From the NCBI GenBank assembly GCA_937919655.1, contig CALFPJ010000063.1, positions 124,001-188,000 of the forward strand: a DNA stretch of 64,000 bases, in the 5' to 3' direction. The translations under genes were made by a program, and so were the position numbers. Of this stretch, positions 17,148 through 42,396 are shown one piece after another. The DNA is from an uncultured Gemmatimonadales bacterium. GTDB taxonomy: Bacteria; Gemmatimonadota; Gemmatimonadetes; Longimicrobiales; Gaopeijiaceae. Position 1 is the stretch's first letter, and each line of letters begins with the position of its first letter. A model generated the notes under the pieces. It made no database searches. It was not told the origin of the DNA and saw only the letters and a list, made by a program, of their open reading frames with translations.

Positions 17148-17161
17148 GGAGAACCAACCCA

Positions 17162-20830: not shown

Positions 20831-20938
20831 ATAGGCCTCCGTCGCGATCGCGCGCCTTCAGCACTCTCCTGGTGCTCGGGGTCGTGATGCGTAAAAGATA
20901 CCGGACCATCCACGCCCCCCCCCGACTTGACGTTGAGT

Positions 20939-21487: not shown

Positions 21488-23274
21488 GAGCTCTGTTAGA
21501 GTGGCTCGACGATCGCACCGGATTCAGGGGCCTGCTGCGGGCTGCGCTCTTCGAGCGGATTCCCGGGGGTGCGCGGTGGCGATATGTATGGGGGAGCACG
21601 CTGACGTTTGCGATTTTCGTCCAGTTCGTGACGGGACTCGTTTTGTGGGCAGCGTATAGCGCCAATGCGCAGGGAGCGTGGGAGAGCGTCTATTTCATTG
21701 AGCACGAGATGCTCGGCGGCTGGGTGCTCCGCGGCGTCCATCACTACATGGCTCAGGCGACCATCATCCTGTTGGTCATCCATCTTATGCAGGTGGTGAT
21801 CGACGGAGCCTACCGGGCTCCCCGCGAAGTCAATTTCTGGTTCGGCCTCGGACTCCTGTTCGTCGTGCTCGGTCTTTCGCTCTCAGGGTATCTCCTTCCG
21901 TGGGATCAGAAGGGCTTCTGGGCCACTAAGGTCGCCACGAGTATCGCTGCGATTACTCCTGTAATTGGACCCACGCTTCAACAGATGCTTGTAGGGGGCA
22001 CAGAGTACGGCCACCACACGCTGACCCGGTTCTTCGCGCTGCATGCGGGGGTTCTGCCGGGGCTTCTCATGTTGATGATCGTGGCCCATGTGTATTTGTT
22101 TCGCCGCCACGGAGTGACGGTCGTCAAAAAGCCCGAGGCACGTGACGGCTTCTTTTGGCCGGATCAGGTGTTACGCGACGGCGTCGCGTCGCTCGCGGTC
22201 ATGGTGGCGGTGCTCGTTGTCGTATTTGCGACTGGAGGAGCAGAACTCGGAGCACCAGCCGACCCTACGGAGCCGTACGCTGCTGCGCGCCCCGAGTGGT
22301 ACTTCATGTTCCTATTTCAGTGGCTGAAGTACTTCCCGGCAGGCTGGGAGATCGTAGGGGCGCACCTGATACCTGGTTTCGTTGTTACCCTCCTCGTCCT
22401 GATGCCGATTTTCGCCCGTGCTAGGCTTGGGCATAGGCTGAATCTTGCGCTTCTTGGCTCGGTCATCGTAGGGATCGTGGCACTGACCACATTAGCCTAT
22501 GTCGAGGACGGGGCCGACCCAGACTTCGCCGCCGCCGTCGCCAAGAGTGACGCTCTGTCGGAGCGAATGAACGCACTGGTGGTAGCTGCGCACGGGATTC
22601 CAGCGGGTGGGGGACTTTCTTTGCTCCGCAGCGACCCTATGACGCAGGGGCCAGCCCTGTTTTCGACGCACTGCTCCAGTTGCCATCGAGTGGATGGCCA
22701 CGACGGGTTGGGGGGCCTACTAACCGACGACCCTGCCGCCGCGGACCTGGCGGGCTTCGGAAGTCGCGAGTGGCTCACTGGCCTGCTCGACCCCGAGCGT
22801 TTTGCGACGCCGGAGTACTTCGGCGGTACGCAGCACGTTCGCGGCCGCATGTCTCGCGTGGTCCAGCGAGCCATCGCCTCGTTTGGGCCAGAACAGGTCG
22901 CCGAGCTTGGACTCGTGGTGAAGGCCCTCTCTGCGGAGGCCGCCCTACCTAGACAAGCCGCCGCAGACTCGGTCGACCGGGCGGAGATCGAGGAGGGGGG
23001 AAGGCTCATGGCGACAGAACGCATGAACTGCACCCGCTGCCATCTGTTTCACGGAGTGAATCAGGAGCTGGAAGGCCCGCAACTTACCGGATGGGGCTCT
23101 CGCGAATGGATGCTTGGGATGCTCCAGAATCCGGGGCACGTTTCGTTCTACGGCGATTCAAACGATGGCATGCCGGCGTTCGGCGACGATGCGATTCTCA
23201 CCGAAGCCCAAATGGGATTGATTGTGGATTGGCTCCGGCAGGACTGGTACGAGGTCGAGGCTGGGGGGCGCTAG
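21484..23274 (+). CDS. cytochrome b fused to diheme cytochrome c
   Basis: 596 residues. The N-terminal 210 residues are cytochrome b6-like, with haem-ligand His pairs in 'VHHYMAQATIILLVIH' (13 residues between) and 'LHAGVLPGLLMLMIVAH' (14 between, the b6f-like spacing). A subunit-IV-like part follows with the quinol-site motif PEWY near 269. The C-terminal 230 residues face the periplasm and carry two c-type haem sites, CSSCH (about 397) and CTRCH (about 516), each with a Met-containing downstream segment. This fusion supplies the job of cytochrome c1. With the overlapping Rieske gene it forms a compact menaquinol/ubiquinol:cytochrome c reductase. I prefer the ATG at 21484, which overlaps the Rieske stop, to the upstream start. 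Confidence 0.92.
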   Translation: MRALLEWLDDRTGFRGLLRAALFERIPGGARWRYVWGSTLTFAIFVQFVTGLVLWAAYSANAQGAWESVYFIEHEMLGGWVLRGVHHYMAQATIILLVIHLMQVVIDGAYRAPREVNFWFGLGLLFVVLGLSLSGYLLPWDQKGFWATKVATSIAAITPVIGPTLQQMLVGGTEYGHHTLTRFFALHAGVLPGLLMLMIVAHVYLFRRHGVTVVKKPEARDGFFWPDQVLRDGVASLAVMVAVLVVVFATGGAELGAPADPTEPYAAARPEWYFMFLFQWLKYFPAGWEIVGAHLIPGFVVTLLVLMPIFARARLGHRLNLALLGSVIVGIVALTTLAYVEDGADPDFAAAVAKSDALSERMNALVVAAHGIPAGGGLSLLRSDPMTQGPALFSTHCSSCHRVDGHDGLGGLLTDDPAAADLAGFGSREWLTGLLDPERFATPEYFGGTQHVRGRMSRVVQRAIASFGPEQVAELGLVVKALSAEAALPRQAAADSVDRAEIEEGGRLMATERMNCTRCHLFHGVNQELEGPQLTGWGSREWMLGMLQNPGHVSFYGDSNDGMPAFGDDAILTEAQMGLIVDWLRQDWYEVEAGGR

Positions 23275-24313: not shown

Positions 24314-25144
24314 CTATCCGCCCCTCGCACGCCGCGGCGGAGCCTTGAGGGCTTGGTACTGCTGCATCGCTGCGACCACCTTGAAGTTGACGACGACTCG
24401 GCCGATCTCAGGCGTCGCTAGCGTGGGATCGCCGGTCACCCCTGCGTCGGGGCGCCCCCCGAAACGGAACCGGCGGTCGTTCCTGACGCCGGCAGCGAAC
24501 ACGTACATGACCGCGGACGTGTCCGTAATGCCCGCGTGGCTCCCGATCGTTTCCATGTCGTAGCCGTACGCTGCCTGTAGCCACGCTCGTGAATACTCCT
24601 GTCCCTTCTGATAGTAGTCGGTAAGCGCGAAGATCTTCGGCGTGCCGCCCTCCCATTCGGTGTTCAGCCTCACGGCGACCTCGTCCATTCCAGCCTGATC
24701 GCCTCCGCTGTCCGCGATGAAGATGATCTCTGTGAATCCGTGCGACTCCAGGCTGCGCGCGGCCGCCTCAAGCAGGTTGTTGTAGCTCGGCGACGGGTTC
24801 GTGATCACGCCTGGTTTGTCGCCGAAGCCTTCGCGCTCGTAGCTGCCCTCAGGGACCCATGCGACGGTCGGCGCGACCAAGGCATCTCCGAGCTGGCTCG
24901 CCATCCGGCCTGCGGCGAAGGTGATGACGTAGTTGTGCTTGCCCATAACCATGTGCGGGCCGTTCTGTTCGGTTCCGCCGATCGGAACGATGACCTTGGT
25001 TTTTCCCGCAGCCATCGCGTCACGGATCTCGGTCCAGGTCATCTGCTCGATGAACGGATCTCCAGTCGTCTGCGCCCTGAGTGGAGCGGCGACGAGGGGA
25101 ATAAGGGCGAATGCGAGAAGGAATCGTCTGTTATACATGATCAT
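24314..25144 (-). CDS. exported creatininase-family protein, copy 2 of a tandem pair
   Basis: 276 residues with a signal peptide ending 'APLRAQ'. It has the creatininase fold landmarks: 'VIVPIGGTEQNGPH' and 'GSHAGITDTS'. Creatininases bind metals through an E-x-H...D pattern; here Glu59 is kept, but the His position is Asn61 and the Asp position is His70 ('GPHMVMGKH'). The usual NGHGGN loop reads 'ADSGGD'. So the metal site is remodelled and the substrate cannot be taken as creatinine. The gene starts 3 bp after its upstream neighbour's stop, with AGGGG before the ATG; 'MYNRR' (25138) is an alternative start. It is likely periplasmic. Confidence 0.8.
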   Translation of the reverse strand: MIMYNRRFLLAFALIPLVAAPLRAQTTGDPFIEQMTWTEIRDAMAAGKTKVIVPIGGTEQNGPHMVMGKHNYVITFAAGRMASQLGDALVAPTVAWVPEGSYEREGFGDKPGVITNPSPSYNNLLEAAARSLESHGFTEIIFIADSGGDQAGMDEVAVRLNTEWEGGTPKIFALTDYYQKGQEYSRAWLQAAYGYDMETIGSHAGITDTSAVMYVFAAGVRNDRRFRFGGRPDAGVTGDPTLATPEIGRVVVNFKVVAAMQQYQALKAPPRRARGG

Positions 25145-25147
25145 CCC

Positions 25148-25972
25148 CTACCGGGCGGCTAGGCTGGCTTGGATCTGAGCCAGCGCGTTGTTGATCTTAA
25201 TGCGGAGCTGCGCTTCTCCCAGCGCGGCGGTGGAGAGTGACGGGTCACCACTCACTCCAGAGCCCTCAAACCCTCCGTCCGGGGCCGCCTTGTCCATGCG
25301 CACGTGGTGGGGGTTCACGAACAGCATCTGCGAGGTGTCGAGGAGGCCAGCGTGGCTGCCGATCTGAGCGTCGGTGAAACCCCGCGCCTTCATGTAGCCG
25401 GTGATGTCCTCGTTGCTCTTCGCGTAATAATCCCCGATGAAGTGCGCGCGCACCGCGGTGCCCGCCCATTCGGCGTTGAGCTGCTCGGTGACCGCGCTCA
25501 TGCCCCGCTGATTCCCACCTGAATCTCCAATGAAAAGGATGTCCGTGAAGCCCCCAGCCGCGTGGCTCTTGGCGGTGTGCACCAACAACTCGCGGAACCA
25601 GTCCTCGGGCAGCGTGATCGTTCCCGGCATGCGCATGTGACCCGTCGGCTCCGCGCCCCAGTTGCCTTCCGGCACGTAGGTCATGATGGGCGATACGAGC
25701 GCGTTCCCTAGAAGGCGCGCTAGCTCGTCCATGGTGTACTCCATGACGTACTTGTGCTCACCCATGACCATATGCGGGCCTTTCTGCTCGGTGCCCGCTG
25801 TCGGGATAATGATCGTCGTGCTGCCCGCATCGATCTCGTCGCGGATTTCTTCCCAGGTTAGGGCCTCGATGAACACCGAGTTGGGCGGAGCCTGACAGAG
25901 CACCGGAGCCGGCGAGAAGAACGGTACCAGGGCGGCCGGTAGTGCGAGGGCTAGGAGTCTACTTCGATTCAT
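25148..25972 (-). CDS. exported creatininase-family protein, copy 1 of a tandem pair
   Basis: 274 residues from the ATG at 25972, which has GGAG nine bases upstream; an ATG at 25981 touches that GGAG and is less likely. A signal peptide ends near 'PVLCQ'. The motif block reads 'TEQKGPHMVMGEH', with Glu62 kept, Lys64 in place of the metal His and His73 in place of Asp; the second loop is 'GDSGGN'. The end 'LAQIQASLAAR' matches the length of its neighbour. The two genes form an operon and are clear paralogs that have drifted far apart. A third relative lies at 41494-42396. Amidohydrolase activity is possible but not shown. Confidence 0.8.
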   Translation of the reverse strand: MNRSRLLALALPAALVPFFSPAPVLCQAPPNSVFIEALTWEEIRDEIDAGSTTIIIPTAGTEQKGPHMVMGEHKYVMEYTMDELARLLGNALVSPIMTYVPEGNWGAEPTGHMRMPGTITLPEDWFRELLVHTAKSHAAGGFTDILFIGDSGGNQRGMSAVTEQLNAEWAGTAVRAHFIGDYYAKSNEDITGYMKARGFTDAQIGSHAGLLDTSQMLFVNPHHVRMDKAAPDGGFEGSGVSGDPSLSTAALGEAQLRIKINNALAQIQASLAAR

Positions 25973-26504
25973 TGACGTCATCTCCAGGGCAAACGTGTGT
26001 CGCGACGGTGCATCAGGCCGCCGTCCAAAGGGCGTACCCTCGCTCAGTATCTGACTTTGTGCCGCATGCGCAAGCGGCGCTGAGGCCGGAATCTTCGCGG
26101 ATCACGGTATCTGCTTGTTTAGCATGAGGATCCGAGCCTTCGGTGTCGTCCTAAAACGGAGATCGTTCCCACTCGACGGTAGCTGCTCGGCGACGAAGGC
26201 TCAGCATTTTGGACGAGAAGCGACCCTTATAGGGGACGCAGGTTGCATAGGTGGATGCACGCCGAGTGCTGCATGGGCCTGGAGCGAAAACGGGGTCGGG
26301 AATGGCTCGTCCCGAGTGGGGATGGCGCCGCCGGTCGGCGCCAGCCAGATTGGCCCGCCGTTGTGGTCAATGGGTCGCCCCGGAGCTCCGCGGAAGATCG
26401 CACGAAAGTAGTTAACCCCTTGCAATGAGGAGGCAGGGGTGAACGCCACCGTCCATGGAACGATGACGCTGGCCGAAACCCTTTGCGGGCCTTAATGTGA
26501 CGTT
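25973..26504. other. 532-bp divergent intergenic region
   Basis: This lies between the left-going creatininase pair and the right-going DUF1592 gene and should hold both promoters. Short open frames exist (for example 26201-26449 on the minus strand, containing 'GAPGRPIDHNGGPIWLAPTG'), but I recognise no family and see no ribosome-binding site, so I call no gene. No RNA gene or strong hairpin is visible. Confidence 0.4.
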
Positions 26505-28955
26505 ATGCATTGGACCATAGGAACACTCCTGTTCGCGGGCGTGCTACTTGTCTCGCTGGCGCCCCAAAGTGTGCCGGGCCGCGCGGTGGACACGATGGCC
26601 CAGGCGCATTTGAGCAGTGAGCAGTCTTCAGAGGACGACGTCATCCAGCAGTACTGTGTTCGGTGCCACAGTGAGCAACGCCTTACCGGCAACCTGTCAC
26701 TCGAAGATTTCGCGCTTTCGTCGGCGCACCTCAAGCGCGAAACCGCTGAGAAGATGATCCGGAAGCTGAGGGCTGGCATGATGCCGCCACCCGGGGCGCG
26801 ACGGCCGACAGGGGACACGCTTCTCGCGCTCGTGGAGACGCTGGAAGGTCTCATGGACCAATTCGCCACAGCGAATCCGGATCCGGGGGCGCGGCCGTTT
26901 CAACGCATGAATCGTGCCGAGTACGAGAGATCGATCTACGACCTCCTCGGCCTGCAGGTAGACGCGGGTGACTATCTGCCGTTGGACACCAAGAGCGCCA
27001 ACTTCGACAACATCGCGGACGTGCAGATGTTGTCCCCGACGCTATTGGATGCGTACCTGAGCGCGGCGGCCGAGATCAGCCGGCTGGCTGTTGGGGATCC
27101 CGAAGCGTCCGCGAGTGAGACGCAGTTCCGCGTGCCGCGCTGGGTATCCCAAATCGAACGGGTCGAGGGCGCCCCCTTCGGGACACGTGGGGGGACGTCG
27201 GTAATGCACACGTTCCCCGCGGACGGCGAGTACGTTTTCCGGGTCTCGTTCCATCACGAGACCACCGGGACGGCGGTGGGGAATGGACGGTCTGCGCTAC
27301 AGACTGCGGACACTCCGGAACAAGTCGAGATCTCGGTCGATGGAGAGCGTCTCGTGCTGCTCGAGATGGACCGGTGGATGAATGTGTCGGACCCCGGAGG
27401 TGCGGAGATCCGCTCGGAGCCGGTCTTCATCAAGTCCGGCTCCCACCGCGTGTCAGCTGCGTTCATTACACACGCCGAGGGCCCGGTACAAGATCTCATC
27501 GCGCCGCACGACTGGTCGCTGGCGAGCACGGCGATCGCGGGCACCTATGGAATCAACTCGCTGCCACACATCCGCGACTTCGTGATTGGCGGCCCGTTGT
27601 CGACGACCGGGGTGTCTGAGACTCCGATCAGGGAGAGGATCTTCACGTGTCATCCGGAGAACGAGTCGGGTGAAAGGGAATGCGCCAAAGAGATCCTCGA
27701 GGCGCTGGGCGCACGCGCGTTTCGACGTCCCCTCACGGAGCGGGACCGCGCCGCTCTGATCTCGTTTTATGAAGAAGGGAGACTCGAAGGCGACTTCGAC
27801 CGGGGCATACGGACGGGGTTGGAAGCAATTCTTGCGAGCCCGCACTTCGTGTTCCGCTTCGAGCAGCCACCTGAAGGTGTGTCGGCGGGTGAAACGTATC
27901 GACTAGCAGGTGTGGCCTTGGCTTCCAGGCTCTCGTTCTTCTTGTGGGGTACGCCGCCCGATCAGGAATTGAACGATCTTGCCGCCTCAGGCTCTCTCTC
28001 TGACGACGAGGCACTCCAAGGTCAGGTGCGGCGCATGCTTGCCGACCCGAGAGCCGAAGCGATGGGCACTCGCTTCGCGGCCCAGTGGCTGCGCCTCCAG
28101 GACCTGGACAAGATCCATCCCGACGTGCGCCTCGAGCCTGACTTTCATCAACAGCTTGCGGACGCGATGCGCCGTGAGACTGAGCTCTTTTTTTACAGCT
28201 TGGTACGGGACGACAGAAGCGTGTTGGACTTATTCGAGGCCGACTACACCTATGTGAACGAACGCCTCGCGCGCCACTACGGAATGGAAGGTGTGGTAGG
28301 GGAGGGCTTCCAGCGGGTCACCTACACCGACGAGAGACGCAGGGGGCTCCTCGGCCACGCCAGCATTTTGACCATGACGTCCCATGCGGGCAGAACTTCC
28401 CCCGTGCTCCGAGGCAAGTGGGTCATGGAGGTGCTGTTGGGCACCCCGCCTCCGCCTCCACCGCCGGGGGTTCCAGATCTAGAAGAGGTCGAGGGATCTG
28501 CCGCGGGTGTGTTGCTGACGACGCGCGAACGCATGGCGGAGCACTCGAGTAGCCCGAGCTGCAATTCATGTCACCGGTTTATGGATCCCATCGGTCTCGC
28601 GCTCGACAACTTCGGCGTGGCGGGGAAGTGGCGCATTCGTGAAAACGGGCAGCCGTTGGACACAAATGGTGAGTTGTATGACGGCACCTCGATCTCCGGT
28701 CCTAGCGATCTTCGCCGCGCGCTCCTAGCGCGGCCGATCCCGTTGGTGCGGACGTTCACCGAGAATCTCATGGCTTACGCTATGGGTCGCCGAGTAGAGT
28801 ACTTCGATCAAACCGCGCTCCGGGCCATTGTGGCAGACGCTGAGCGCCAGGACTACCGTATGTCGGCGTTCATCATTGGGGTCGTGATGAGCGACGGATT
28901 CCGCATGCAGCGTGCCGGCGCAGTTGCCGAACCCGCTTCAGGCGTCGAGAACTAG
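26505..28955 (+). CDS. DUF1587/1595/1592/1588/1585 exported protein with two CxxCH motifs (cassette A)
   Basis: 816 residues with a signal peptide. An N-terminal haem-type CVRCH lies near residue 51, then the Planctomycete-type series: DUF1587 ('FQRMNRAEYERSIYDLLGL'), a carbohydrate-binding-like beta region, DUF1595 ('RAFRRPLTERDRAAL'), DUF1592 ('ASRLSFFLWGTPPD', 'RFAAQWLRLQDLDKIHPD'), DUF1588 ('GHASILTMTSHAGRTSPVLR', seven prolines in a row, then CNSCH near 685) and DUF1585 ('RTFTENLMAYAMGRRVEYFD'). It is probably a periplasmic multidomain cytochrome-like protein of unknown reaction. The next gene starts 11 bp downstream, followed by an ankyrin gene with a 4-bp overlap. A close paralog is at 32253-34721. 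Confidence 0.88.
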   Translation: MHWTIGTLLFAGVLLVSLAPQSVPGRAVDTMAQAHLSSEQSSEDDVIQQYCVRCHSEQRLTGNLSLEDFALSSAHLKRETAEKMIRKLRAGMMPPPGARRPTGDTLLALVETLEGLMDQFATANPDPGARPFQRMNRAEYERSIYDLLGLQVDAGDYLPLDTKSANFDNIADVQMLSPTLLDAYLSAAAEISRLAVGDPEASASETQFRVPRWVSQIERVEGAPFGTRGGTSVMHTFPADGEYVFRVSFHHETTGTAVGNGRSALQTADTPEQVEISVDGERLVLLEMDRWMNVSDPGGAEIRSEPVFIKSGSHRVSAAFITHAEGPVQDLIAPHDWSLASTAIAGTYGINSLPHIRDFVIGGPLSTTGVSETPIRERIFTCHPENESGERECAKEILEALGARAFRRPLTERDRAALISFYEEGRLEGDFDRGIRTGLEAILASPHFVFRFEQPPEGVSAGETYRLAGVALASRLSFFLWGTPPDQELNDLAASGSLSDDEALQGQVRRMLADPRAEAMGTRFAAQWLRLQDLDKIHPDVRLEPDFHQQLADAMRRETELFFYSLVRDDRSVLDLFEADYTYVNERLARHYGMEGVVGEGFQRVTYTDERRRGLLGHASILTMTSHAGRTSPVLRGKWVMEVLLGTPPPPPPPGVPDLEEVEGSAAGVLLTTRERMAEHSSSPSCNSCHRFMDPIGLALDNFGVAGKWRIRENGQPLDTNGELYDGTSISGPSDLRRALLARPIPLVRTFTENLMAYAMGRRVEYFDQTALRAIVADAERQDYRMSAFIIGVVMSDGFRMQRAGAVAEPASGVEN

Positions 28956-28966
28956 AGGAGCGTGAC

Positions 28967-30355
28967 ATGCACATCATGACCGGCAAACACATCCCGAGGC
29001 GGACATTCATTCGTGGCATGGGCGCGTCCGTGGCGTTGCCGCTTCTGGACGCAATGATCCCGGCCGGGCGCCTAAGCGCTCGAGCCGCCCAGGCCGCCGA
29101 TCCCACACGTTTGGTGGCCATCGAGATCGTGCATGGTGCCGCGGGCAGCAACGAATGGGGTGCCTCGCAAAATCTGTGGTCACCGGCAGACACAGGCCGC
29201 GGCTTCGATCTCACCCCAAGCTCTCTTCTCCCTCTGGATCCGTGGCGTGACTATCTGACGATCATCAGCAACACTGACGTCAGGCACGCAGAGGCTGCGA
29301 TGGCCAAGGAGATCGGTGGGGACCACTTCCGATCGAGTTCGGTGTTTCTGACCCAATCGCACCCAAAACAGACCGAAAGTTCGGACGTCGAGGTGGGTGT
29401 GTCTCTCGACCAGATGTACGCGCGGCGTTTCGGCCAAGATACCCCGATTCCGTCCATGCAGCTGTGCATCGAAAACGTCGATCAAGCGGGTGGATGTGCC
29501 TACGGGTACGCGTGCGTTTACACCGACACCATCAGTTGGGCATCACCCACGGAGCCACTTCCCATGGTGAGGGATCCGCGGGTGGCGTTCGATCGTCTGT
29601 TCGGGGCGGGGGGAAGCGCCAAAGAACGTGCGTCGCGCCGCCGCACGAGCCGGAGCATCCTGGACTGGATCGCGGAGGACGTGGCCCAACTGAAGCGGGC
29701 GCTGGGGCCGAACGATCTTCAGCGTCTAGATCGGTATCTGGATAACGTCCGGGAGCTTGAGCGCCGCATTCAGGGCGTGGAGGCGCAGAATTTGTCCGGA
29801 GAAGTTCGCGCGCTCCCGGAGGCGCCTGCCGGAGTGCCGGACTCGTTCAGCGATCATGTGAAGTTGATGTTTGACCTTCAGGCGCTTGCCTTCGCGTCGG
29901 ATATGACCCGCGTCTTCTCTCTGAAGTTGGGCCGCGACGCCTCCTCACGCGTCTACCCGGAGAGCGGGGTCGACACACCGTTCCATCCGTCTTCACACCA
30001 CGGGGGGCGTGAAGCCGCGGTGACGGAGTTCGCGGAGATCAACAAGTACCACGTCGGCTTGCTCCCGTACTTCATGGAGAAGCTCAAGGAGATCGAAGAG
30101 GGGGAGTCAAACCTCCTGGATAAGACGATGATCCTTTACGGCTCCCCAATGGCAGATGGGAACCTCCACAATCACCGGCGCTGCCCGTTGATCGTGCTCG
30201 GAGGGGCGCAAGGCAGGCTGGCCGGGAATCTCCATGTGAAGGCCCCTGACGGTACGCCGATGGCCAACGCGATGCTCACGCTCATGCATGAACTGGGCAT
30301 GGACGACCTTGAGACCTTTGGGGACAGCACGGGCGCGCTGTCTTTGTCGGGATGA
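28967..30355 (+). CDS. DUF1552 exported protein (cassette A)
   Basis: 462 residues. The leader 'RRTFIRGMGASVALPLLDAM' is a twin-arginine-type signal, so the protein is probably exported folded. The body matches DUF1552, a relative of DUF1501 and of the alkaline-phosphatase/sulfatase superfamily: 'VHGAAGSNEWGASQNLW', 'GGDHFRSSSVFLTQSHPKQT', 'DQMYARRFGQDTPIPSMQL', 'HPSSHHGGREAAVTEFAEI', 'DKTMILYGSPMADGNLHNH'. The His/Asp-rich blocks near 'SSHHGG' and 'NLHNH' look like metal ligands. It always travels with DUF1592 proteins; function is unknown. An AGAGGAG run sits before the start. Its TGA overlaps the ankyrin ATG. Confidence 0.88.
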   Translation: MHIMTGKHIPRRTFIRGMGASVALPLLDAMIPAGRLSARAAQAADPTRLVAIEIVHGAAGSNEWGASQNLWSPADTGRGFDLTPSSLLPLDPWRDYLTIISNTDVRHAEAAMAKEIGGDHFRSSSVFLTQSHPKQTESSDVEVGVSLDQMYARRFGQDTPIPSMQLCIENVDQAGGCAYGYACVYTDTISWASPTEPLPMVRDPRVAFDRLFGAGGSAKERASRRRTSRSILDWIAEDVAQLKRALGPNDLQRLDRYLDNVRELERRIQGVEAQNLSGEVRALPEAPAGVPDSFSDHVKLMFDLQALAFASDMTRVFSLKLGRDASSRVYPESGVDTPFHPSSHHGGREAAVTEFAEINKYHVGLLPYFMEKLKEIEEGESNLLDKTMILYGSPMADGNLHNHRRCPLIVLGGAQGRLAGNLHVKAPDGTPMANAMLTLMHELGMDDLETFGDSTGALSLSG

Positions 30356-32160
30356 CCCTCATGACGAGACAAGGCGCAAAGAGACGTAATCCCTTGGGGC
30401 ACAGGCTTCTGTTCGCCGCACTGACGACCACCTTGATGGCGGCGGGGATCCCGACGGACGTTGCGGATTCTCCGGTAGCCGATGCCGCGATGAGGGGCGA
30501 CATCGCCGGAGTGCGAGCACTTCTGGAAAATGGCGCCGACATGGATGCGGCCCAGGGTGACGGGATGACCGCACTCCACTGGGCTGCGGTGACGGGGAAC
30601 GCCGAGTTGGCCGCACTCCTGATTGCCGGCGACGCTTACTTAGAGGGAGAGACGCGGCTGGGGGCCTACCGCCCTCTTCACTTGGCCGCGAAGAACGGCA
30701 ATGCGGCGATTCTGGCCGCCCTTCTGGATGCGGGCGCTGAAGTCGACTCGGAAACGGCAACCGGAGCTGTCACGGCTCTCCATTTCGCGTCGGCTTCTGG
30801 AATCGAGGATGCTGTGCGCACGCTGATCGATCATGGAGCTGACGTCGGGCGCCGAGAGGGAACGTGGGGGCAGACACCCTTGATGTTCGCAGCCGCCTCA
30901 GGCCGGGCCGGTACTGCGAAGCTATTGGTCGACGCTGGCGCGGACCCTGACGTGATTGCAGAAGTCTTGGACATGCCCACGCGTGACGCCCAGGATCGTG
31001 AGGACGAGGCACGATCGCGCGAACTCCGTGGGCAAACCGGGCGTTCGTCGGGGGAGGCGAGTGTTGGAGGGGCGGGCGCGGGGCCGGGCACCCCCCCTAC
31101 TGCGCGGGTCGACCCGAACGAGGCTCAACGGGACCGTGGCGCCCAGCGGCTGTCCGCTGCAGAGCTGATCGGTGGCTATGGGGGATTGAGCGCGCTGTTG
31201 TTGGCCGTGCGCGAGGGACACGTCCAGGCGGCCACTCAGCTTCTGGATCTGGGCGCCGACATCAATCTGGCCAGCGGGGGTGACCATACGACTCCCCTCC
31301 TCATGGCATCCATCAACGGCCATTTCGACTTGGCCATGGAATTGTTCCAGCGCGGAGCGGACCCGAGCATCGCGAGCGGGGCAGGCGCGACGCCGCTCTA
31401 CGTGGTTCTCAATACGGAGTGGATCCCAAAGTCTCGGCACCCGCAGCCCACACACCGGTTGCAGCAAGAAGTCACGTATCTGGACCTGATGCGCGCATTT
31501 CTAGACCACGGGGTGGATCCGAACCTCGGACTCACGAAACAGCTGTGGTTCACGACGTTCGGTGACGACTATCTAGGGGTGGACCGAGGGGGCGCGACTC
31601 CCTTCTGGCGTGCCGCGTACGCATTGGATATCGAGGCGATGCGCATGCTCGTCTCGTATGGTGCAGATTCCTCTTCGCCGACACTTAGGCCGCCTGCGCG
31701 GGCTCGCCGCGGGGGACCAGGCGCCGACGCCCCGGGTGGCGCATCGGGCGGAGACCCCTCAGGGCTTCCACCAGTTCCCGTTGGCGGTCCAGGAGTTTGG
31801 CCGATCCACGCCGCGTCTGGTGTAGGATACGGCGAGGGTTTTGCGGGCAACATCCACCGGCACGCCCCTGAAGCCTGGCTGCCGGCCGTTCGTTATTTGG
31901 TGGAAGAACGCGGCGCAGACGTGAACGCCCGCGACCACAACGGGTATAACGCGATTCACCATGCGGCTTCACGAGGGGACAACGAGTTGATCCTCTATCT
32001 GGTCCAAAAAGGCGGGGACGTTTCTGCCGTGAGCCGGGCTGGGCAGACCACGGTCGACATGGCTAACGGCCCAGCGCAGAGAATTTCGCCATTCCCGGAG
32101 ACGATCGCGCTCCTAGAGGGGCTCGGTGCGAAGAACAACCACAATTGTGTGGGTTGCTGA
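30352..32160 (+). CDS. exported ankyrin-repeat protein with C-terminal CVGC (cassette A)
   Basis: 602 residues. A hydrophobic leader ('LLFAALTTTLMAAGI') precedes ankyrin repeats such as 'GDGMTALHWAAVTGNAELAA', 'YRPLHLAAKNGNAAILAA', 'TALHFASASGIEDAVRTL', 'QTPLMFAAASGRAGTAKL', a low-complexity Gly/Pro linker near 225-255, more repeats, a conserved block with 'WPIHAASGVGYGEGFAGNIH' and terminal repeats. It ends '...NHNCVGC', two Cys spaced by two residues, also found in the second copy. Ankyrin repeats bind proteins; the partner is probably a DUF1592 or DUF1552 protein from the same operon. The ATG overlaps the DUF1552 stop; an ATG at 30361 is an alternative. Confidence 0.88.
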   Translation: MTLMTRQGAKRRNPLGHRLLFAALTTTLMAAGIPTDVADSPVADAAMRGDIAGVRALLENGADMDAAQGDGMTALHWAAVTGNAELAALLIAGDAYLEGETRLGAYRPLHLAAKNGNAAILAALLDAGAEVDSETATGAVTALHFASASGIEDAVRTLIDHGADVGRREGTWGQTPLMFAAASGRAGTAKLLVDAGADPDVIAEVLDMPTRDAQDREDEARSRELRGQTGRSSGEASVGGAGAGPGTPPTARVDPNEAQRDRGAQRLSAAELIGGYGGLSALLLAVREGHVQAATQLLDLGADINLASGGDHTTPLLMASINGHFDLAMELFQRGADPSIASGAGATPLYVVLNTEWIPKSRHPQPTHRLQQEVTYLDLMRAFLDHGVDPNLGLTKQLWFTTFGDDYLGVDRGGATPFWRAAYALDIEAMRMLVSYGADSSSPTLRPPARARRGGPGADAPGGASGGDPSGLPPVPVGGPGVWPIHAASGVGYGEGFAGNIHRHAPEAWLPAVRYLVEERGADVNARDHNGYNAIHHAASRGDNELILYLVQKGGDVSAVSRAGQTTVDMANGPAQRISPFPETIALLEGLGAKNNHNCVGC

Positions 32161-32252
32161 CCGATTTATTCGTGGTATCGCAGGATCTGACAGCGTATAG
32201 TGACTAGCAGAATGTTCACAAATGGGTTCGGGCCCGCAGGGAGGGCTGTTAA

Positions 32253-34721
32253 ATGAGGATACTCAGCGCGATGACGGCGCTCGGCGTTGTGCTTATCGTC
32301 GCGAGTGAATCCACGCCGGATAAGGCGCCTGGATTCTTCTTATCGTCGGCGGCGGTCCCTGTGGACGTGGTCCACGAGCCCGGGCTGCCGTCCGCTGAAG
32401 ACAATGACGTCATTCAGCGCTACTGCGTCCGCTGCCACAGTGATGCCCGTCTAACCGGCAACCTGTCGTTGGAAGCGTTCGATGCCGCAGACCCGGAAGC
32501 GAACGCGGTCATCGCAGAGCGTATGGTCCGCAAGCTCAGGGCGGGAATGATGCCGCCTCCTGGGGCCCGCAGGCCTACTGGCGACACCTTGCTTCAACTC
32601 GTGCAGGGCCTGGAAGCGCGTCTCGATGCATCCGCGGCCGCGAATCCGAATCCCGGCATCCGCACGTTTCAGCGGCTGAACAGAATCGATTACGAACGGT
32701 CCATTCTTGCTCTGCTCGCGCTCGAAGTGAACGCCGGAGCGTTCCTCCCGCTCGACACCAAGAGCGCGAACTTCGACAACATCGCAGACGTGCAGCTGCT
32801 CTCCCCGACGCTGCTCGACGCCTATATGAACGCGGCCACCGAAATCAGCCGCCTCGCCGTAGGTGATGCGGACGCGCTGCCGAGAACGGCCACGTACACC
32901 AACGCTGGCTACGTGACCCAATGGGACCGCGCGGACGGCGCACCGTTTGGCACCCGCGGTGGAATTTCCGTCACACACACGTTCCCGGCGGACGCAGAAT
33001 ACGTGTTCAATTTGGCGTTCGAGCACACGACGACGGGCGGCTTTTTCGGGAGCACGATTCCCGATGAACAGATCGAAATTTCGATCGATGGCGAGCGGGT
33101 ACAGCTTATCGATGTAGATCGATGGATGGACGTTTCAGATCCAAATGGCGTCAACATGCGCTCAGACTCGATCTTCGTTCGAGCTGGCCCGCACCGGGTG
33201 ACCGCTGCCTTTCTCCAGCAGAGCGAGGGGCCGAAGGAAGACCTGGTCTCCCCGCATGCGTGGTCAATCACGGACCGGCAGGTAGGTGCTGGCGGGTACG
33301 GAATCACGGCGCTCGCGCATCTCAAGGACATGGCCGTCGTGGGCCCGTACAACGCCACTGGGGTTTCGGACACGCCGAGCCGCGACCGGATCTTCAGTTG
33401 CCGTCCGACGTCTTCGGGAGAGGCACGTCCTTGCGCCGAGGAGATCATGACGCGGCTGGCCCGCCAGGCGTTTCGGCGACCGGTGACCGGTGCGGACGTG
33501 GACGGTCTCATGTCTTTTTATGACCAAGGCGCCGCCGACGCGGACTTCGAACGAGGCGTACGGACTGGGCTGGAGGCGATGCTCTCGAGCCCCGACTTTG
33601 TGTTCCGGTTCGAGGAGCCAGCGGGTGCGGTCACGCCTGGAGAATCCTACCGGCTCAGTGATGGCGCCGTCGCATCACGACTGTCTTTCTTCCTTTGGGG
33701 CACGCCGCCGGACGAAGAACTCCTGGGTCTTGCAGAACGAGACGCGCTGGGGAATGAGGAGACTTTCCGCAAACAGATCCTTCGGATGTTGGCTGATCCG
33801 CGAGCGGAAGCCCTGGGCACACGGTTCGCGGCGCAATGGCTCCGTCTGGACGACTTGGAGAAGGTCCATCCGGATCGACTCCTCTTCCCGGACTTCCACC
33901 AGCAGCTCGCGGATGCGATGCGCCGGGAGACCGAGCTTTTCTTCAGCAGCCTGGTCCAAGAAGACCGTAGTGCTCTGGAGTTGTACTCGGCTGACTACAC
34001 GTACTTGAATGAGCGGCTCGCCTTCCACTACGGCATTGACGGCGTGATTGGGGACGAATTCCGCCGCGTTGAATATCCAGATGAGACACGCCGCGGCCTA
34101 CTTGGGCACGGGAGTATTCTGACACTCACGTCCCACGCTGGGCGTACATCACCCGTGCTTCGTGGCAAGTGGGTGATGGAGGTGCTGCTTGGAACGCCGC
34201 CGCCGCCTCCTCCGCCTGGCGTGGCAGACCTCGATGAGACGGAGGGCTCCGAAGACGGGCGCTTCCTCACGACGAGAGAGCGGATGGAGATCCACCGCAC
34301 GAGCCCCACGTGTAATTCGTGTCACCGCTTCATGGACCCGATCGGGCTCGCGCTCGACAACTTCGACGTTACGGGCCGGTGGCGGATTCGTGAAAACGGC
34401 ATGCCGCTCGACACTCAGGGCGAGTTGTATGACGGCACCGCGATCACGAGCCCAATGGAGCTACAGCAAGCGCTCGTTGCACGTCCGATTCCGCTTATCC
34501 GGACGTTCACGGAGAACCTCATGGCCTACGCCTTGGGACGCCGCGTAGAACATTTTGATCAACCGACTGTACGTGCCATCGCGGCCCGTGCCGCAGAAAA
34601 CGACTACCGCATGTCTGAGTTCATCATGGGTGTAGTCACGAGTGACGCGTTCCGCATGCAGCGTGCCCCGGACGTGACCGTCGATGGAATCACAAGTGGC
34701 GCCGCCGCGCGGCACCCCTAG
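32253..34721 (+). CDS. DUF1587/1595/1592/1588/1585 exported protein with two CxxCH motifs (cassette B)
   Basis: 822 residues, a paralog of 26505-28955 with the same domain order. CVRCH is near residue 58 and CNSCH near 686. Long blocks are identical in both copies ('RKLRAGMMPPPGARRPTGDT', 'LPLDTKSANFDNIADVQ', 'TSHAGRTSPVLRGKWVMEVL', 'CNSCHRFMDPIGLALDNF'), whereas the beta region at about 200-330 and the leader have diverged. The run of seven prolines in DUF1588 is kept. A purine-rich AGGGAGGG (32238-32245) precedes the ATG. It begins 92 bp after cassette A ends, and the gap contains a TATAGT box (32196-32201) that may be part of a promoter for this copy. Confidence 0.88.
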   Translation: MRILSAMTALGVVLIVASESTPDKAPGFFLSSAAVPVDVVHEPGLPSAEDNDVIQRYCVRCHSDARLTGNLSLEAFDAADPEANAVIAERMVRKLRAGMMPPPGARRPTGDTLLQLVQGLEARLDASAAANPNPGIRTFQRLNRIDYERSILALLALEVNAGAFLPLDTKSANFDNIADVQLLSPTLLDAYMNAATEISRLAVGDADALPRTATYTNAGYVTQWDRADGAPFGTRGGISVTHTFPADAEYVFNLAFEHTTTGGFFGSTIPDEQIEISIDGERVQLIDVDRWMDVSDPNGVNMRSDSIFVRAGPHRVTAAFLQQSEGPKEDLVSPHAWSITDRQVGAGGYGITALAHLKDMAVVGPYNATGVSDTPSRDRIFSCRPTSSGEARPCAEEIMTRLARQAFRRPVTGADVDGLMSFYDQGAADADFERGVRTGLEAMLSSPDFVFRFEEPAGAVTPGESYRLSDGAVASRLSFFLWGTPPDEELLGLAERDALGNEETFRKQILRMLADPRAEALGTRFAAQWLRLDDLEKVHPDRLLFPDFHQQLADAMRRETELFFSSLVQEDRSALELYSADYTYLNERLAFHYGIDGVIGDEFRRVEYPDETRRGLLGHGSILTLTSHAGRTSPVLRGKWVMEVLLGTPPPPPPPGVADLDETEGSEDGRFLTTRERMEIHRTSPTCNSCHRFMDPIGLALDNFDVTGRWRIRENGMPLDTQGELYDGTAITSPMELQQALVARPIPLIRTFTENLMAYALGRRVEHFDQPTVRAIAARAAENDYRMSEFIMGVVTSDAFRMQRAPDVTVDGITSGAAARHP

Positions 34722-34730
34722 GAGAGTCAT

Positions 34731-36137
34731 ATGGAGTTCATCACTGGAAAGCACCTGCCAAGGCGGACATTCTTGAAGGGTATGGGCGCGACGGTTGCGC
34801 TCCCGCTACTTGATGCGATGGAGCCGGCAGGCCGGGTCTGGTCGAAGCTTCCCCGGGCCGTTGACCCGACGCGCCTCGTCACCATCGAGATGGTGCATGG
34901 TGCTGCCGGGAGCAACGAATGGGGTGCCAGTCAGAATCTGTGGGCGCCAGCCGAGGTGGGGCGTGATTTCGATCTCTCCACGAGCGCACTAAGTCCGCTA
35001 GAGCCTTATCGCGATCATCTGACGATCATCAGCAACACAGACGTGCGCATGGCGGAGGCGTTCCAATCGACTGAGATCGGGGGCGACCACTTCCGATCGA
35101 GCGCGGTGTTTCTTACTCAGGCGCATCCGAAACAAACAGAGGGTTCGGATGTGTACGTGGGCACCTCGCTTGATCAGCTCTATGCGAACCGGTTCGGACA
35201 GGACACGCCGATCCCGTCCATGCAATTGTGTATTGAGAACATCAATCAATCGGGCGGGTGCGCGTACGGGTACACGTGCGTCTATACGGACTCGATTAGT
35301 TGGGCGACCCCGACCCAGCCTCTGCCCGTGATCCGCGATCCTCGGGTGGCGTTCGATCAGCTGTTCGGTGCTGGCGGCACGGCAGAAGAACGAGACGCGC
35401 GTCGCAGGACCAACAAGAGCATTCTAGACTGGGTCGCGGGGCGCGTGGCCACACTACGCACGCAACTGGGCCCTAACGACCTCGAGCGGCTGGACAGGTA
35501 CCTCGAGAACGTTCGGGAGATCGAGCGCCGTATTCAGAGTGTCGAGGCGCACAACATGAGTGGCGCTCCGCGCGAGTTGCCTGAGGCCCCGGCCGGTGTT
35601 CCAGATTCCTTCGAAGAGCACATGCGCCTGATGTTCGACATTCAGGCGCTGGCGTTTGCGTCTGACATCACACGTGTCTTTTCCCTGAAGATGGGTCGCG
35701 ATTCTTCCGCCCGTGTTTATTCGGAGAGCGGCTCGGATCGGCCGTTCCACCCGGCGTCACACCACGGCGGCCGAGAGGCCGGGATCCTCGAATTCTCGAA
35801 GATCAACCAGTACCACGTGAGCATGTTGCCTTACTTCTTGGACAAGCTGAAGGATCTCCAGGAGGGTGAGGGCAACATGCTGGATAAAACGATGATCATG
35901 TACGGTTCGCCGATGGCGGACGCGAATTTGCACAACCACCGGCGTGCGCCACTCATCGCGCTGGGCAAGGCTAACGGGGCGCTAGAAGGCGGCGTGCACC
36001 TCCGGGCGCCCGATGGCACGCCGATGGCCAACCCGATGCTCAGCATGATGCACGGACTGGGGATGGACGACATGGAGAGCTTCGGAGACAGCACTGGAGA
36101 GTTCTCGCTCAGCTCCACTACCCGCTCGCAGGGTTGA
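34731..36137 (+). CDS. DUF1552 exported protein (cassette B)
   Basis: 468 residues, a paralog of 28967-30355. The leader is 'RRTFLKGMGATVALPLLDAM', again Tat-like. The metal-like blocks are unchanged ('HPASHHGGREAGILEFSKI', 'DKTMIMYGSPMADANLHNH'), and so is 'GGCAYGYTCVYTDSISWATP'. Conservation of these blocks in both copies supports them as functional. It starts 9 bp after the DUF1592 stop and ends 4 bp before the ankyrin start, so the three genes form one transcript. Function is unknown; a phosphatase/sulfatase-like hydrolase is possible from the superfamily link only. Confidence 0.88.
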   Translation: MEFITGKHLPRRTFLKGMGATVALPLLDAMEPAGRVWSKLPRAVDPTRLVTIEMVHGAAGSNEWGASQNLWAPAEVGRDFDLSTSALSPLEPYRDHLTIISNTDVRMAEAFQSTEIGGDHFRSSAVFLTQAHPKQTEGSDVYVGTSLDQLYANRFGQDTPIPSMQLCIENINQSGGCAYGYTCVYTDSISWATPTQPLPVIRDPRVAFDQLFGAGGTAEERDARRRTNKSILDWVAGRVATLRTQLGPNDLERLDRYLENVREIERRIQSVEAHNMSGAPRELPEAPAGVPDSFEEHMRLMFDIQALAFASDITRVFSLKMGRDSSARVYSESGSDRPFHPASHHGGREAGILEFSKINQYHVSMLPYFLDKLKDLQEGEGNMLDKTMIMYGSPMADANLHNHRRAPLIALGKANGALEGGVHLRAPDGTPMANPMLSMMHGLGMDDMESFGDSTGEFSLSSTTRSQG

Positions 36138-36141
36138 GTCG

Positions 36142-38010
36142 ATGACGGGCACACAGGGAGTGACCGGTGTCGGGCTCCACTTGAGGTCTCTTTGCGCTCT
36201 TTGCGCCGTCCTCGTCCTGACGGCGGCAACCAGCTTCGAAAACTTGCCCGACGCGGTAAGATCAGGCGACGCGGAGCAGGTTCGCGATCTCTTGCGAGGC
36301 GGCGCCGATGTAAATGCCGCCCAAGGGGACGGCATGACCGCGCTCCACTGGGCGGCGGAAGTTGGCAATGCAGAGATCTCTGAAATCTTGATACGCGGCG
36401 GAGCAAAAGTCGGAGCTGTGACTCGGCTGGGGGACTACACGCCCCTCCATCTTGCGAGTCGGAAGGGGCGCGCCGACGTGATGGCTGTTCTGCTCGAGGG
36501 CCACGCGGATCCCAATGCGGCAACGACTTCCGGTGGATCTACCCCGCTGCATTTCGCTGCGTCGGCTGGCAGCGTGGAAGGGATCGACGCGCTTCTGGCG
36601 GCTGGAGCCGCGCCAAACGCACGGGAGTCGAGTCGCGGGCAAACCCCCCTCATGTTTGCTGCCGCCGATGGGAGGACCCAGGCGGTGCTGGCGCTCCTGG
36701 CCGGCGGCGCTGACGCGTCCCTGACGTCACTCGTGGTAGACGTGTCCGAACAGTCTGCCGCTGACCAGGAGGCGGGGAAGCGCCGCGATGAGGAGCTCGA
36801 CCGGCTGCGTGCGGAGGCCGGACCGGTAGGCGAGGCTTGGCGACCGACGCCGAGCCAAGTACAGGCCGCGGTGCACGCGGCTCGTGCGACGCCCGAACCC
36901 GCAAGCGAACTCAGCGACGGCCCTGATGGGGCGCTCGACGCGATGGGGAGGGTCGTCCAGGAGGCTGGTGGACGAGCTACGCCTCCGCAGGAGGGGGTTG
37001 GCGCGGCTGCCGCCGACGGCGAGTCACCCGGCTACGTCGGCGCGGTGGGAACGCTGGGCGGCATGACTGCGTTGCTGCACGCCGTTCGCGACGGTCACGT
37101 CGAAACCGCGGCCGCATTGTTGGACGCGGGAGCAGACATTGATCAGCCCAGCGCGGGGGACGGGACGGCACCGCTCTCGAGCGCGTTGATCAACGGACAC
37201 TTTGACTTGGCGCTGGGGCTTCTTGAACGCGGGGCGGATCCTAATCAGGTGAACGCCGCGGGGGTCGGTCCGCTATTCGCCGTCCTGAATACGCATTGGG
37301 CGCCCAAGGCCCGGTACCCGCAACAGCAGGCGTACAATCAGCAGAACACGACGTATCTTGAGGTAGCCGAGCGCCTCCTCGCGGCCGGTGCCGACCCCAA
37401 CCAGCGGCTCACGAAGCACGTCTGGTTCATGGAGTACACGTTCAGCCAGCTTGGCATCGACATGACCGGTGCGACGCCGTTTTGGCGGGCCGCGCACGCC
37501 CTAGACGTTGATGCGATGAAGCTGCTTGTATTGAACGGAGCGGATCCCAACATCCCGACGGTCAATGTGCCGTCGAGGCGGCGAGGTGGTGGCGGCGAGG
37601 ACCCTTCGGGCTTACCTCCGGCTCCGATTGGGGGGCCAGGCGTCTACGCGATACACGCGGCGTCTGGCCACGGGTATGGCACTGGCTTCGCCGGTAACTC
37701 ACACAGGTACGCACCGGACGGTTGGATGCCTACCATCCGCTATCTGGTCGAAGAGCTGGGCGTAGACGTGAATGCCCGTGATGCGACGGGTTACACCGCA
37801 ATACACAACGCGGCTGCGCGCGGTGATACCGAGATGATCAGCTACCTCGTGGAGCAAGGCGGCGACGTGATGGTTGTGAGTCGCAGGGGCCAGACGACCA
37901 CGGATATGGCCAACGGCCCACAACAACGCACTCAGCCGTTCCCAGAGGCGATCGAGTTACTCATGTCCTTGGGTGCGCAGAACAGCTTCAACTGTGTGAG
38001 TTGCCAGTAG
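36142..38010 (+). CDS. exported ankyrin-repeat protein with C-terminal CVSC (cassette B)
   Basis: 622 residues, a paralog of 30352-32160. A leader ('LCALCAVLVLTAATS') precedes ankyrin repeats ('GDGMTALHWAAEVGNAEISE', 'YTPLHLASRKGRADVMAV', 'STPLHFAASAGSVEGIDA', 'QTPLMFAAADGRTQAVLA'). A variable charged/Pro linker follows at about 205-300, then more repeats, the shared 'YAIHAASGHGYGTGFAGNSH' block and the tail 'NCVSCQ'. The linker differs almost completely from the first copy, while the repeats and the Cys tail are kept. It lies 4 bp after DUF1552. The role is probably protein binding in the periplasm. Confidence 0.88.
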   Translation: MTGTQGVTGVGLHLRSLCALCAVLVLTAATSFENLPDAVRSGDAEQVRDLLRGGADVNAAQGDGMTALHWAAEVGNAEISEILIRGGAKVGAVTRLGDYTPLHLASRKGRADVMAVLLEGHADPNAATTSGGSTPLHFAASAGSVEGIDALLAAGAAPNARESSRGQTPLMFAAADGRTQAVLALLAGGADASLTSLVVDVSEQSAADQEAGKRRDEELDRLRAEAGPVGEAWRPTPSQVQAAVHAARATPEPASELSDGPDGALDAMGRVVQEAGGRATPPQEGVGAAAADGESPGYVGAVGTLGGMTALLHAVRDGHVETAAALLDAGADIDQPSAGDGTAPLSSALINGHFDLALGLLERGADPNQVNAAGVGPLFAVLNTHWAPKARYPQQQAYNQQNTTYLEVAERLLAAGADPNQRLTKHVWFMEYTFSQLGIDMTGATPFWRAAHALDVDAMKLLVLNGADPNIPTVNVPSRRRGGGGEDPSGLPPAPIGGPGVYAIHAASGHGYGTGFAGNSHRYAPDGWMPTIRYLVEELGVDVNARDATGYTAIHNAAARGDTEMISYLVEQGGDVMVVSRRGQTTTDMANGPQQRTQPFPEAIELLMSLGAQNSFNCVSCQ

Positions 38011-38061: not shown

Positions 38062-38132
38062 GCTTCCATCGATGTCCCGCATCTCAAGCTCGGCCCTCGG
38101 CAGGTAACAGAGGGCGACCTGGGGGATACGTG

Positions 38133-38361
38133 ATGGCCCGTCGTACTCGCAGCTACGACCACGGTGTGCGTCGGGCGTCCCCTCTTGGACATGGCGATCG
38201 GGGAGCTATTCGACGCGACCTTAGCGCGCTTCCGGATCGGGAGGCGCTCATCTCTCGGCATCAGGGGATGCGCTGGACATACGCCGAGTTGAAAGAACAG
38301 GTCGACCGATGCGCGGCCGGCCTGATCTCATTTGGGCTTCAGCCCGGAGCGGGGGCTTGTC
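38133..38361 (+). pseudogene. N-terminal remnant of an AMP-binding acyl-CoA synthetase
   Basis: The start reads 'MARRTRSYDHGVRRASPL' from 38133, then moves one frame to 'LLDMAIGELFDATLARF' (to about 38231), then back to 'PDREALISRHQGMRWTYAEL' and 'KEQVDRCAAGLISFGLQPG'. Joined, this is the typical first 75 residues of a long-chain acyl-CoA synthetase or AMP-dependent ligase. Two compensating frameshifts break it and nothing of the remaining 450 residues follows. It is a truncated relic, probably left by a deletion ending near 38361. Confidence 0.75.
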
Positions 38362-38401
38362 TCGGTCGAGGCAGCGTAGGAAGGGGCTCCGTCAGCGACC
38401 G

Positions 38402-38623
38402 TCAGTCAGCGGCCGAGGCCGTCTGCGAGCGTCGGTACCAAACCACCGCGAAAACCGAGGCACCTACTGCGAGGCTGATACCCAGAACCATGAGTACCAT
38501 CTTGAGGGCGATCGCCAGCATGCCCATGACCCATGCAGTCACTGGCACCATGAGCATCTTCAGGCCTTCCAGGAGAAGGAATGTGATGATCCCGGTTACT
38601 GTCAGGGAGGCCGCGAACTTCAT
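38402..38623 (-). CDS. small membrane protein with two predicted TM segments
   Basis: 73 residues. Two hydrophobic helices ('ITFLLLEGLKMLMVPVTAW' at about 13-31 and 'LMVLGISLAVGASVFAVVW' at about 44-62) are followed by a short polar tail 'YRRSQTASAAD'. No family is recognised. Strong codon bias and amphipathic layout support a real gene in an otherwise decayed stretch. It is transcribed in the same direction as the downstream S9 peptidase but starts far from it. Confidence 0.5.
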   Translation of the reverse strand: MKFAASLTVTGIITFLLLEGLKMLMVPVTAWVMGMLAIALKMVLMVLGISLAVGASVFAVVWYRRSQTASAAD

Positions 38624-38726
38624 GGTATCTCTCAGGTCTATGGAAGCGCCAAACTGCGCTTGTTCTCTAGCCTACGCAAAAACCGCCGTCTGAGTTTTAG
38701 TTGTGTGCTCTATCGGATCTCGTTGC

Positions 38727-41493: not shown

Positions 41494-42396
41494 ATGAAAA
41501 AATGGACCTGCCGCGCGCTTGTGCTCGTGCTTGTTGTCGGAGTCGCGCCGGGCTCCCTAGCCGCTCAAGCGGGCCGTGGCGCCAGACCGCCGATGCCCGA
41601 AGTGGTCCGCCCTGCGGATCAGCGGGTTCCCGCGCCTTACAGCTACGACATGGTGCGCCCCATCGCGATGGCGGACAACGTGTGGATGTCGGAACTCACG
41701 ATCCTAGAGATGCGTGATCTTGTCCGAGAATCCGGATACACCACCGCGCTCATCTTGAACGGGACCATGGAGTCCAACGGCCCCTACCTGACCACTGGGA
41801 AGCACAACCACGTGTTGAAGGTGACCGGCGACGTTATTGCTCGGACGCTGGGCAAGACGCTGGTCGCGCCGATCGTGATGCTCGATGGGGGTGATCCTGA
41901 GGCGACGGACACGCCGGGACGCCTGGTGCTCTCGCCTGCGACGCTAAAAGCAGTGTTGGTCGACATGGCGACGAGTCTGCGGTCCCAAGGGTTCAAGGAG
42001 ATTTTTTTCCTCGGAGACAGCGGTAGCAACCGTGGGATGCTGGCAGACGTCGCCTCGGAGCTCTCACAAGCGTGGGCCGGCGAGGACGTTCTTGTTGCGC
42101 ACATAGGGGAGTACTACAACTACGGCGACGTGCTACGCTACCAGAATGAGGTGCTCGGGAAGGTGGAGTTGAACAAGGACCTCGATGGCTACCACGACGA
42201 CTACTACATCTCGTCGCTCATCATGAACGATAGTCCAGATCATGTGCGGTTGAGCGAACGCAAAAAAGTGAACCTTGACCACATCAATAGCCTTCAAATT
42301 GACGAGAAAGAGGCTCTGGAAATCGGAATGAAAATCGCCCAGTTCCGCGCCGATGTGACCGCTACGGCGATCAATCGATTGAGGGCGGGTCGGTAG
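41494..42396 (+). CDS. exported creatininase-family protein (third copy)
   Basis: 300 residues with a signal peptide ending 'GSLAAQ'. The motif block is 'NGTMESNGPYLTTGKH': Glu93 is kept, Asn95 replaces the metal His and His104 replaces Asp; the second loop is 'LGDSGSNRG'. These are the same changes seen in the pair at 24314-25972, so all three form one divergent subfamily. A longer N-terminal linker and a Tyr/Asp-rich block ('DLDGYHDDYYISSL') are unique to this copy. GAGGA (41482-41486) precedes the ATG. It is likely periplasmic; substrate unknown. Confidence 0.82.
   Translation: MKKWTCRALVLVLVVGVAPGSLAAQAGRGARPPMPEVVRPADQRVPAPYSYDMVRPIAMADNVWMSELTILEMRDLVRESGYTTALILNGTMESNGPYLTTGKHNHVLKVTGDVIARTLGKTLVAPIVMLDGGDPEATDTPGRLVLSPATLKAVLVDMATSLRSQGFKEIFFLGDSGSNRGMLADVASELSQAWAGEDVLVAHIGEYYNYGDVLRYQNEVLGKVELNKDLDGYHDDYYISSLIMNDSPDHVRLSERKKVNLDHINSLQIDEKEALEIGMKIAQFRADVTATAINRLRAGR

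Follow-up and report, generated by a model that had tools for sequence, protein, structure and literature searches.

The locus described here raises the question of whether an ankyrin-repeat gene can be a true partner of a DUF1592-type gene and a DUF1552 gene or merely lies beside them. We know of no activity for either the DUF1592-group or the DUF1552 proteins. The stretch of 64,000 nucleotides that was analysed (the window, G000:C63:124001-188000) is part of a 3.77-Mb draft genome, and its named relatives are mostly Gemmatimonadota MAGs. At 26505-38010, the ORF listing gave six plus-strand ORFs forming two head-to-tail C-D-A triads, where C denotes the DUF1587/1595/1592/1588/1585 gene, D the DUF1552/HXXSHH gene, and A the ankyrin gene. 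The first triad (copy A) consists of C (26505..28955), encoding a putative diheme PSCyt3/DUF1592-type protein of 816 aa with a Sec-like leader, CxxCH motifs at residues 51-55 and 686-690, and a CBM-like beta-sandwich at ~204-369; D (28967..30355), encoding a DUF1552 protein (PF07586 HXXSHH) of 462 aa with an RRTF twin-arginine leader and HPSSHH at 340-345; and A (30352..32160), encoding an ankyrin-repeat protein of 602 aa, predicted to be exported, with the C terminus ...NNHNCVGC. The second (copy B) consists of C (32253..34721; 822 aa, likewise a putative diheme PSCyt3/DUF1592-type protein), D (34731..36137; a DUF1552 protein of 468 aa), and A (36142..38010; an ankyrin-repeat protein of 622 aa, also predicted to be exported, ending in ...NSFNCVSCQ).

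An earlier note on this DNA had reported the C-D-A order twice head to tail, with gaps of 11 and −4 bp in copy A and 9 and 4 bp in copy B, and both the order and the gaps were exactly reproduced by the ORF coordinates. Its assignment of export leaders to all six products, with a Tat-like one on DUF1552, was borne out on inspection of the sequences, with a hydrophobic leader seen in six of six and an RRTFL-type twin-arginine motif in both D proteins. The triads are separated by 92 bp (32161..32252), in which a consensus scan found no plus-strand terminator-like site; a single six-gene transcript is therefore possible.

The partnership of the ankyrin gene was assessed in 80 stretches around relatives' DUF1552 genes together with the third triad of the window's own genome, on contig C95. 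This genome has exactly three DUF1552 genes, three DUF1592 genes, and four genes for ankyrin proteins, all but one of the last being in triads. Among the family relatives, A lay directly downstream on the same strand for 83 of 90 D genes; three of the remainder had an ankyrin gene nearby on the opposite strand, and four had none. Where D had an adjacent C, an ankyrin gene was found within 4.5 kb in 84 of 85 cases. The reverse count gave the same picture, with D directly upstream of 106 of 109 ankyrin relatives. DUF1501, another Tat-exported family, was chosen as the negative control; under a 1.5-kb rule, an ankyrin gene was present at 0/23 of the relatives' DUF1501 loci versus 25/30 of their DUF1552 loci.

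The most informative genome was G066 (Acidobacteria by record title), with 36 DUF1552 genes in ~3.6 Mb. Of the 24 DUF1552 genes examined there, 22 had their own adjacent ankyrin gene, which was placed downstream in 14 cases, upstream of C on the same strand in 3, divergent from C in 4, and by a D-C order in 1. Adjacency has thus outlasted rearrangement through four arrangements, and this was deemed the strongest evidence because paralogues are not independent. Among the matches listed, 32 of the 34 distinct ankyrin ORFs of this genome were beside a C-D pair, and the paralogue distances of C, D, and A within it were correlated (r 0.79-0.86, p 0.0005). The earlier note had named chance adjacency in other genomes as one outcome that would speak against its three-part complex, and the association survived this comparison in the forward count (83/90), the reverse count (106/109), the DUF1501 control (0/23), and the rearranged G066. 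A search for gene fusions of C with D, C with A, or D with A found none, and at two loci (L068 and L103) one A was common to two D or C-D genes. Sequence and comparative data show the C, D, and A genes to be one evolutionary unit, with the ankyrin gene as the dedicated third member.

The A proteins matched Pfam as ankyrin throughout, with multiple repeats (E ~1e-49 to 1e-56). Sixty-seven full-length relatives could be aligned over their entire length; C599 and C602, at the very C terminus, were invariant, as were several Trp and His residues. A C-terminal CxxC was present in 142 of 151 complete ankyrin proteins encoded beside a main-type DUF1552 and lay a few residues earlier in 3 more. Ankyrin proteins beside the distant DUF1552 group were mostly without it, and some of these "distant" partners are probably truncated main-type proteins. 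In the aligned set, the terminal CxxC is near-invariant and, together with the full-length conservation, is tied to the DUF1552 clade.

The two copies in the window are ancient paralogues. The "long identical blocks" that had been noted between them were overstated: there was no long identical DNA, the best stretches being 300 nt at 70-75% and 66 nt at 83%. Protein identity between the copies was 63% (C), 74% (D), and 52% (A), and third-position identity was 38-45%. By NG86, dN was 0.30 (C), 0.20 (D), and 0.44 (A), with a saturated dS of 1.7-2.2, giving a dN/dS of ~0.1-0.2. The suggestion that both copies are under selection is upheld in the form of purifying selection, since dN is well under the saturated dS. 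In a tree of 158 DUF1552 proteins, copies A and B fell in separate groups, both of them supported and both also containing close neighbours from elsewhere than the window's genome. In other genomes with two adjacent triads, the first was often A-like and the second B-like for all three proteins, in transcription order; this was clearest in L081 (G020) and was also seen in L068/L130, L121, L122, L129, and L133. The separate groups and the recurring order indicate that the tandem is an old inherited pair, and a recent tandem duplication is ruled out by the saturated dS and by the A-type-then-B-type order kept elsewhere. Different targets for the two copies, as the earlier note proposed, would fit this ancient and conserved divergence. 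Its list of diverged regions held in part: the beta region and the ankyrin linker do differ between copies A and B, whereas family-wide the beta domain and the remainder of C are conserved to about the same degree. A hypervariable target selector in the beta domain is accordingly unsupported across the family.

For both C copies, Pfam assigned PSD3, PSD5, PSD4, PSCyt3, and PSD2 in this order, all above cut-offs; the PSCyt3 and PSD domains were reportedly first found in Rhodopirellula baltica. The N-terminal CxxCH domain itself was below the Pfam cut-off. The two CxxCH motifs per DUF1592 protein that had been noted were found in both copies, and both motifs, one N-terminal and one in the PSCyt3 domain, were invariant in 52 of 52 aligned C proteins. 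Met93 was also invariant in this alignment and is the likely distal ligand, by which the N-terminal heme would be His/Met-ligated. From these features, C looks like a two-heme electron-transfer protein. In the model of C (pLDDT 80), the closest solved structures to the beta-sandwich at ~204-369 included CBM35 and CBM6, at E 1e-2 or worse; the helical heme-bearing parts had no match among PDB structures, and no sequence relatives of C or D were found in the PDB.

Both D proteins matched PF07586 over their full length (E 7e-84 and 4e-85), and the HXXSHH motif corresponds to H340, S343, H344, and H345. H120, H340, and H401 were invariant, and H344 nearly so, even in the distant DUF1552 proteins of Planctomyces and Sphingobium. 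The model of D (pLDDT 70), in which the invariant and putative active-site stretches were the least confident, was matched by Foldseek nearly always to sulfatases and related enzymes. This likeness to the alkaline-phosphatase/sulfatase superfamily (E 3e-5, probability ~1) is weak, with TM 0.40 or less. Alignment across the wider DUF1552 set revealed no invariant Ser, Thr, or Cys at the expected nucleophile position, so D is at most a putative hydrolase. In the alignment, no invariant Asp was recognised after the first strand of D either. A relation of D to DUF1501 (PF07394) was also considered and rejected, as the profiles, which were shallow, showed none (hhalign probability 4%).

There was no constant fourth gene at the triads, the commonest other neighbour family, PQQ-dehydrogenase/cytochrome, being found in only 11 loci. 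The next commonest were TonB receptors, beta-propeller proteins, and creatininase-family amidohydrolases, and polysaccharide-degradation genes were not among the triad neighbours in the family. At 20927-23274 in the window, the gene for a Rieske protein precedes that for a cytochrome b protein carrying a c-type heme domain, a bc-type complex operon ~3 kb upstream of the triads. Three creatininase-family (PF02633) genes flank the triads at 24314-25981 and 41494-42396, the first two with export leaders, and creatininase genes adjoin the triads in eight related loci. A TonB receptor and SusD-like pair is at 13992-18484; a Plug-domain ORF at 18985-19845, behind which short ORFs in different frames extend to 20782, looks like a broken TonB receptor gene. 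Just past copy B, at 38130-38693, an ORF judged by eye begins like an acyl-CoA synthetase N terminus and then loses the match, and is possibly a gene remnant.

The close DUF1552 type was found in 112 of 298 sampled genomes of the window's phylum, and the C-D-A triad recurs across several bacterial phyla, up to ~36 copies per genome; this recurrence points to the ankyrin protein as a third part. An alphaproteobacterial triad is present in Novosphingobium sp. KACC 22771. A second genome that is Acidobacteria by record title, G063, has 31 DUF1552 genes in ~3.2 Mb, and ankyrin genes number in the dozens in both it and G066; the expansion in these two genomes is very large. Gemmatimonadota-like triads at L125, L159, L164, L178, L184, and L185 carry the titles Gammaproteobacteria or Euryarchaeota and are probably from mislabelled or mixed MAGs. 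Two lineages have the C-D pair without ankyrin. On Sphingobium plasmids (NZ_CP020539, AP027325), genes for cytochrome c' and cytochrome b561 come after C and D, and the C protein there retains its PSCyt3 heme site while its N-terminal heme region and beta-sandwich are absent. On a plasmid of Planctomyces sp. SH-PL62, the gene in third place encodes DUF1080. The ankyrin protein is hence not universally required, and since the third genes differ, the core consists of C and D, with a third gene that varies by lineage. The Sphingobium clusters L236 and L238 are near a TonB receptor, and L236 also has Rieske, flavin monooxygenase, and VOC genes, of the kind seen in aromatic or steroid catabolism. 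A paper on a tomatine-degrading Sphingobium does not mention the genes of the C-D cluster.

The reading we favour, at a little short of an even chance, is that the triad is a self-contained exported (periplasmic) redox module. D, exported folded via Tat, would be the substrate-handling and probably metal-binding subunit. C would dock beside it and shuttle electrons between the D active site and the respiratory chain, by way of cytochrome c' and cytochrome b561 in sphingomonads and other cytochromes here. A would serve as an adaptor or assembly solenoid, keeping C and D together or maturing them, and its terminal dithiol would either cap the solenoid or exchange disulfides. The presence of tandem and multiple copies may then reflect paralogous modules for different substrates. 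This redox reading is supported by the two invariant CxxCH motifs and Met93 of C, by the cytochromes encoded beside the Sphingobium C-D pair, and by the PQQ-dehydrogenase/cytochrome family as the commonest other neighbour, though at only 11 loci; the invariant histidines and the fold match of D were also counted in favour of the module. Weighing against it are the middling model of D, least confident in its invariant regions; the Planctomyces and Sphingobium pairs that do without A; the missing terminal CxxC in most of the distant ankyrin proteins; and the want of a constant fourth neighbour that would point to the substrate. The ankyrin protein appears to be a genuine third component of an as yet uncharacterised redox system. 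A bolder form of the proposal, which we regard as possible and rather doubtful, is a periplasmic redox enzyme class undescribed before, in which an ankyrin solenoid whose C terminus carries a dithiol would be the obligate subunit joining a diheme cytochrome to a DUF1552 catalytic subunit, with up to ~36 substrate-specific copies per genome, like polysaccharide-utilisation loci.

The main rival, itself unlikely, is that A serves C, the heme protein, as a cofactor chaperone or maturation factor rather than being a stable subunit of the working complex. The near-invariant terminal CxxC of A and its several invariant Trp and His residues would suit such a role, as would the single A serving two D or C-D genes at L068 and L103. 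CxxCH hemes are attached by the general Ccm machinery, which argues against a dedicated factor, and the copy ratio is nearly 1:1:1 even at ~36 copies per genome, unusual for a helper. A precedent exists in Campylobacter, where the ankyrin protein Cj1386 binds heme and delivers it to the catalase KatA, but this trafficking is described as cytoplasmic and for non-covalent heme (PMC11442138). It is less probable again, and we consider it distinctly improbable, that D acts on polysaccharides as a hydrolase of the sulfatase or phosphatase type, with C binding glycan by its CBM-like domain and the hemes being secondary. The Foldseek matches of D and the resemblance of the C beta-sandwich to CBM35/CBM6 favour this, and in Verrucomicrobia PSCyt genes are near sulfatases and carry CBMs (PMC5615132). 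The low TM of the D matches, the lack of an invariant nucleophile among D relatives, the poor E values of the CBM matches, the absence of polysaccharide-degradation genes among triad neighbours, the invariance of both heme sites, and the loss of the beta-sandwich from Sphingobium C all argue to the contrary.

Two further alternatives would deny the ankyrin protein any part in the system. In the first, the ankyrin proteins are effectors of a eukaryotic-like kind, directed at sponge or coral hosts and encoded merely beside C-D, a view prompted by several carriers, Palauibacter among them, whose MAGs seem to come from sponges or corals. This is very improbable, as the near-absolute association was also found in a soil Novosphingobium and in many MAGs without a host-associated label, and the terminal CxxC and full-length conservation follow the DUF1552 clade. 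Chance adjacency amplified by the duplication of one locus could draw on the fact that many triads are paralogous by descent and the counts non-independent; given the varied gene orders in G066, the alphaproteobacterial triad, and the zero rate at DUF1501 loci, it is scarcely credible.

DUF1592-group and DUF1552 proteins reach tens of copies in some bacteria, so their long-standing obscurity matters. In the portions of the literature accessible to the search, no function was given for either family, and the literature searched, with subscription papers outside its range, held no description of an ankyrin partner of C-D or of its CxxC tail. The near-obligate ankyrin partner, its C-terminal CxxC, and the sphingomonad versions, in which cytochrome c' and cytochrome b561 accompany the pair, provide handles on function, and Novosphingobium sp. 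KACC 22771, a proteobacterial triad carrier with a complete plasmid sequence, lets the role of DUF1592/DUF1552 be tested.

Among known systems, the DUF1501-DUF1800 pairs resemble the triad in that a Tat-exported protein of unknown function is paired with another unknown protein (PMC5122149); they differ in that the shallow profiles showed no relation of DUF1501 to D and that its loci have no ankyrin gene. The Cj1386-KatA system likewise links the function of a bacterial ankyrin protein to that of a heme protein, but, unlike the exported triad, it is described as cytoplasmic, serves a non-covalent heme enzyme, and has no DUF1552 (PMC11442138). The PSCyt3/PSD-domain protein of Verrucomicrobia is like C in its domain string and adjoins a conserved gene of unknown function; that study describes no ankyrin gene there, whereas ankyrin is fixed here (PMC5615132). 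The Planctomyces sp. SH-PL62 pair has DUF1080 in the third position, where ankyrin stands here, and D here has an extra insertion after the first strand. The Sphingobium cluster (DUF1592-DUF1552-cytochrome c'-cytochrome b561) has the same C-D core in the same order, but its C is shortened as described, separate cytochromes take the place of ankyrin, and its D is only ~24% identical. What is new here, relative to these systems, is a dedicated third component added to a known but uncharacterised C-D pair.
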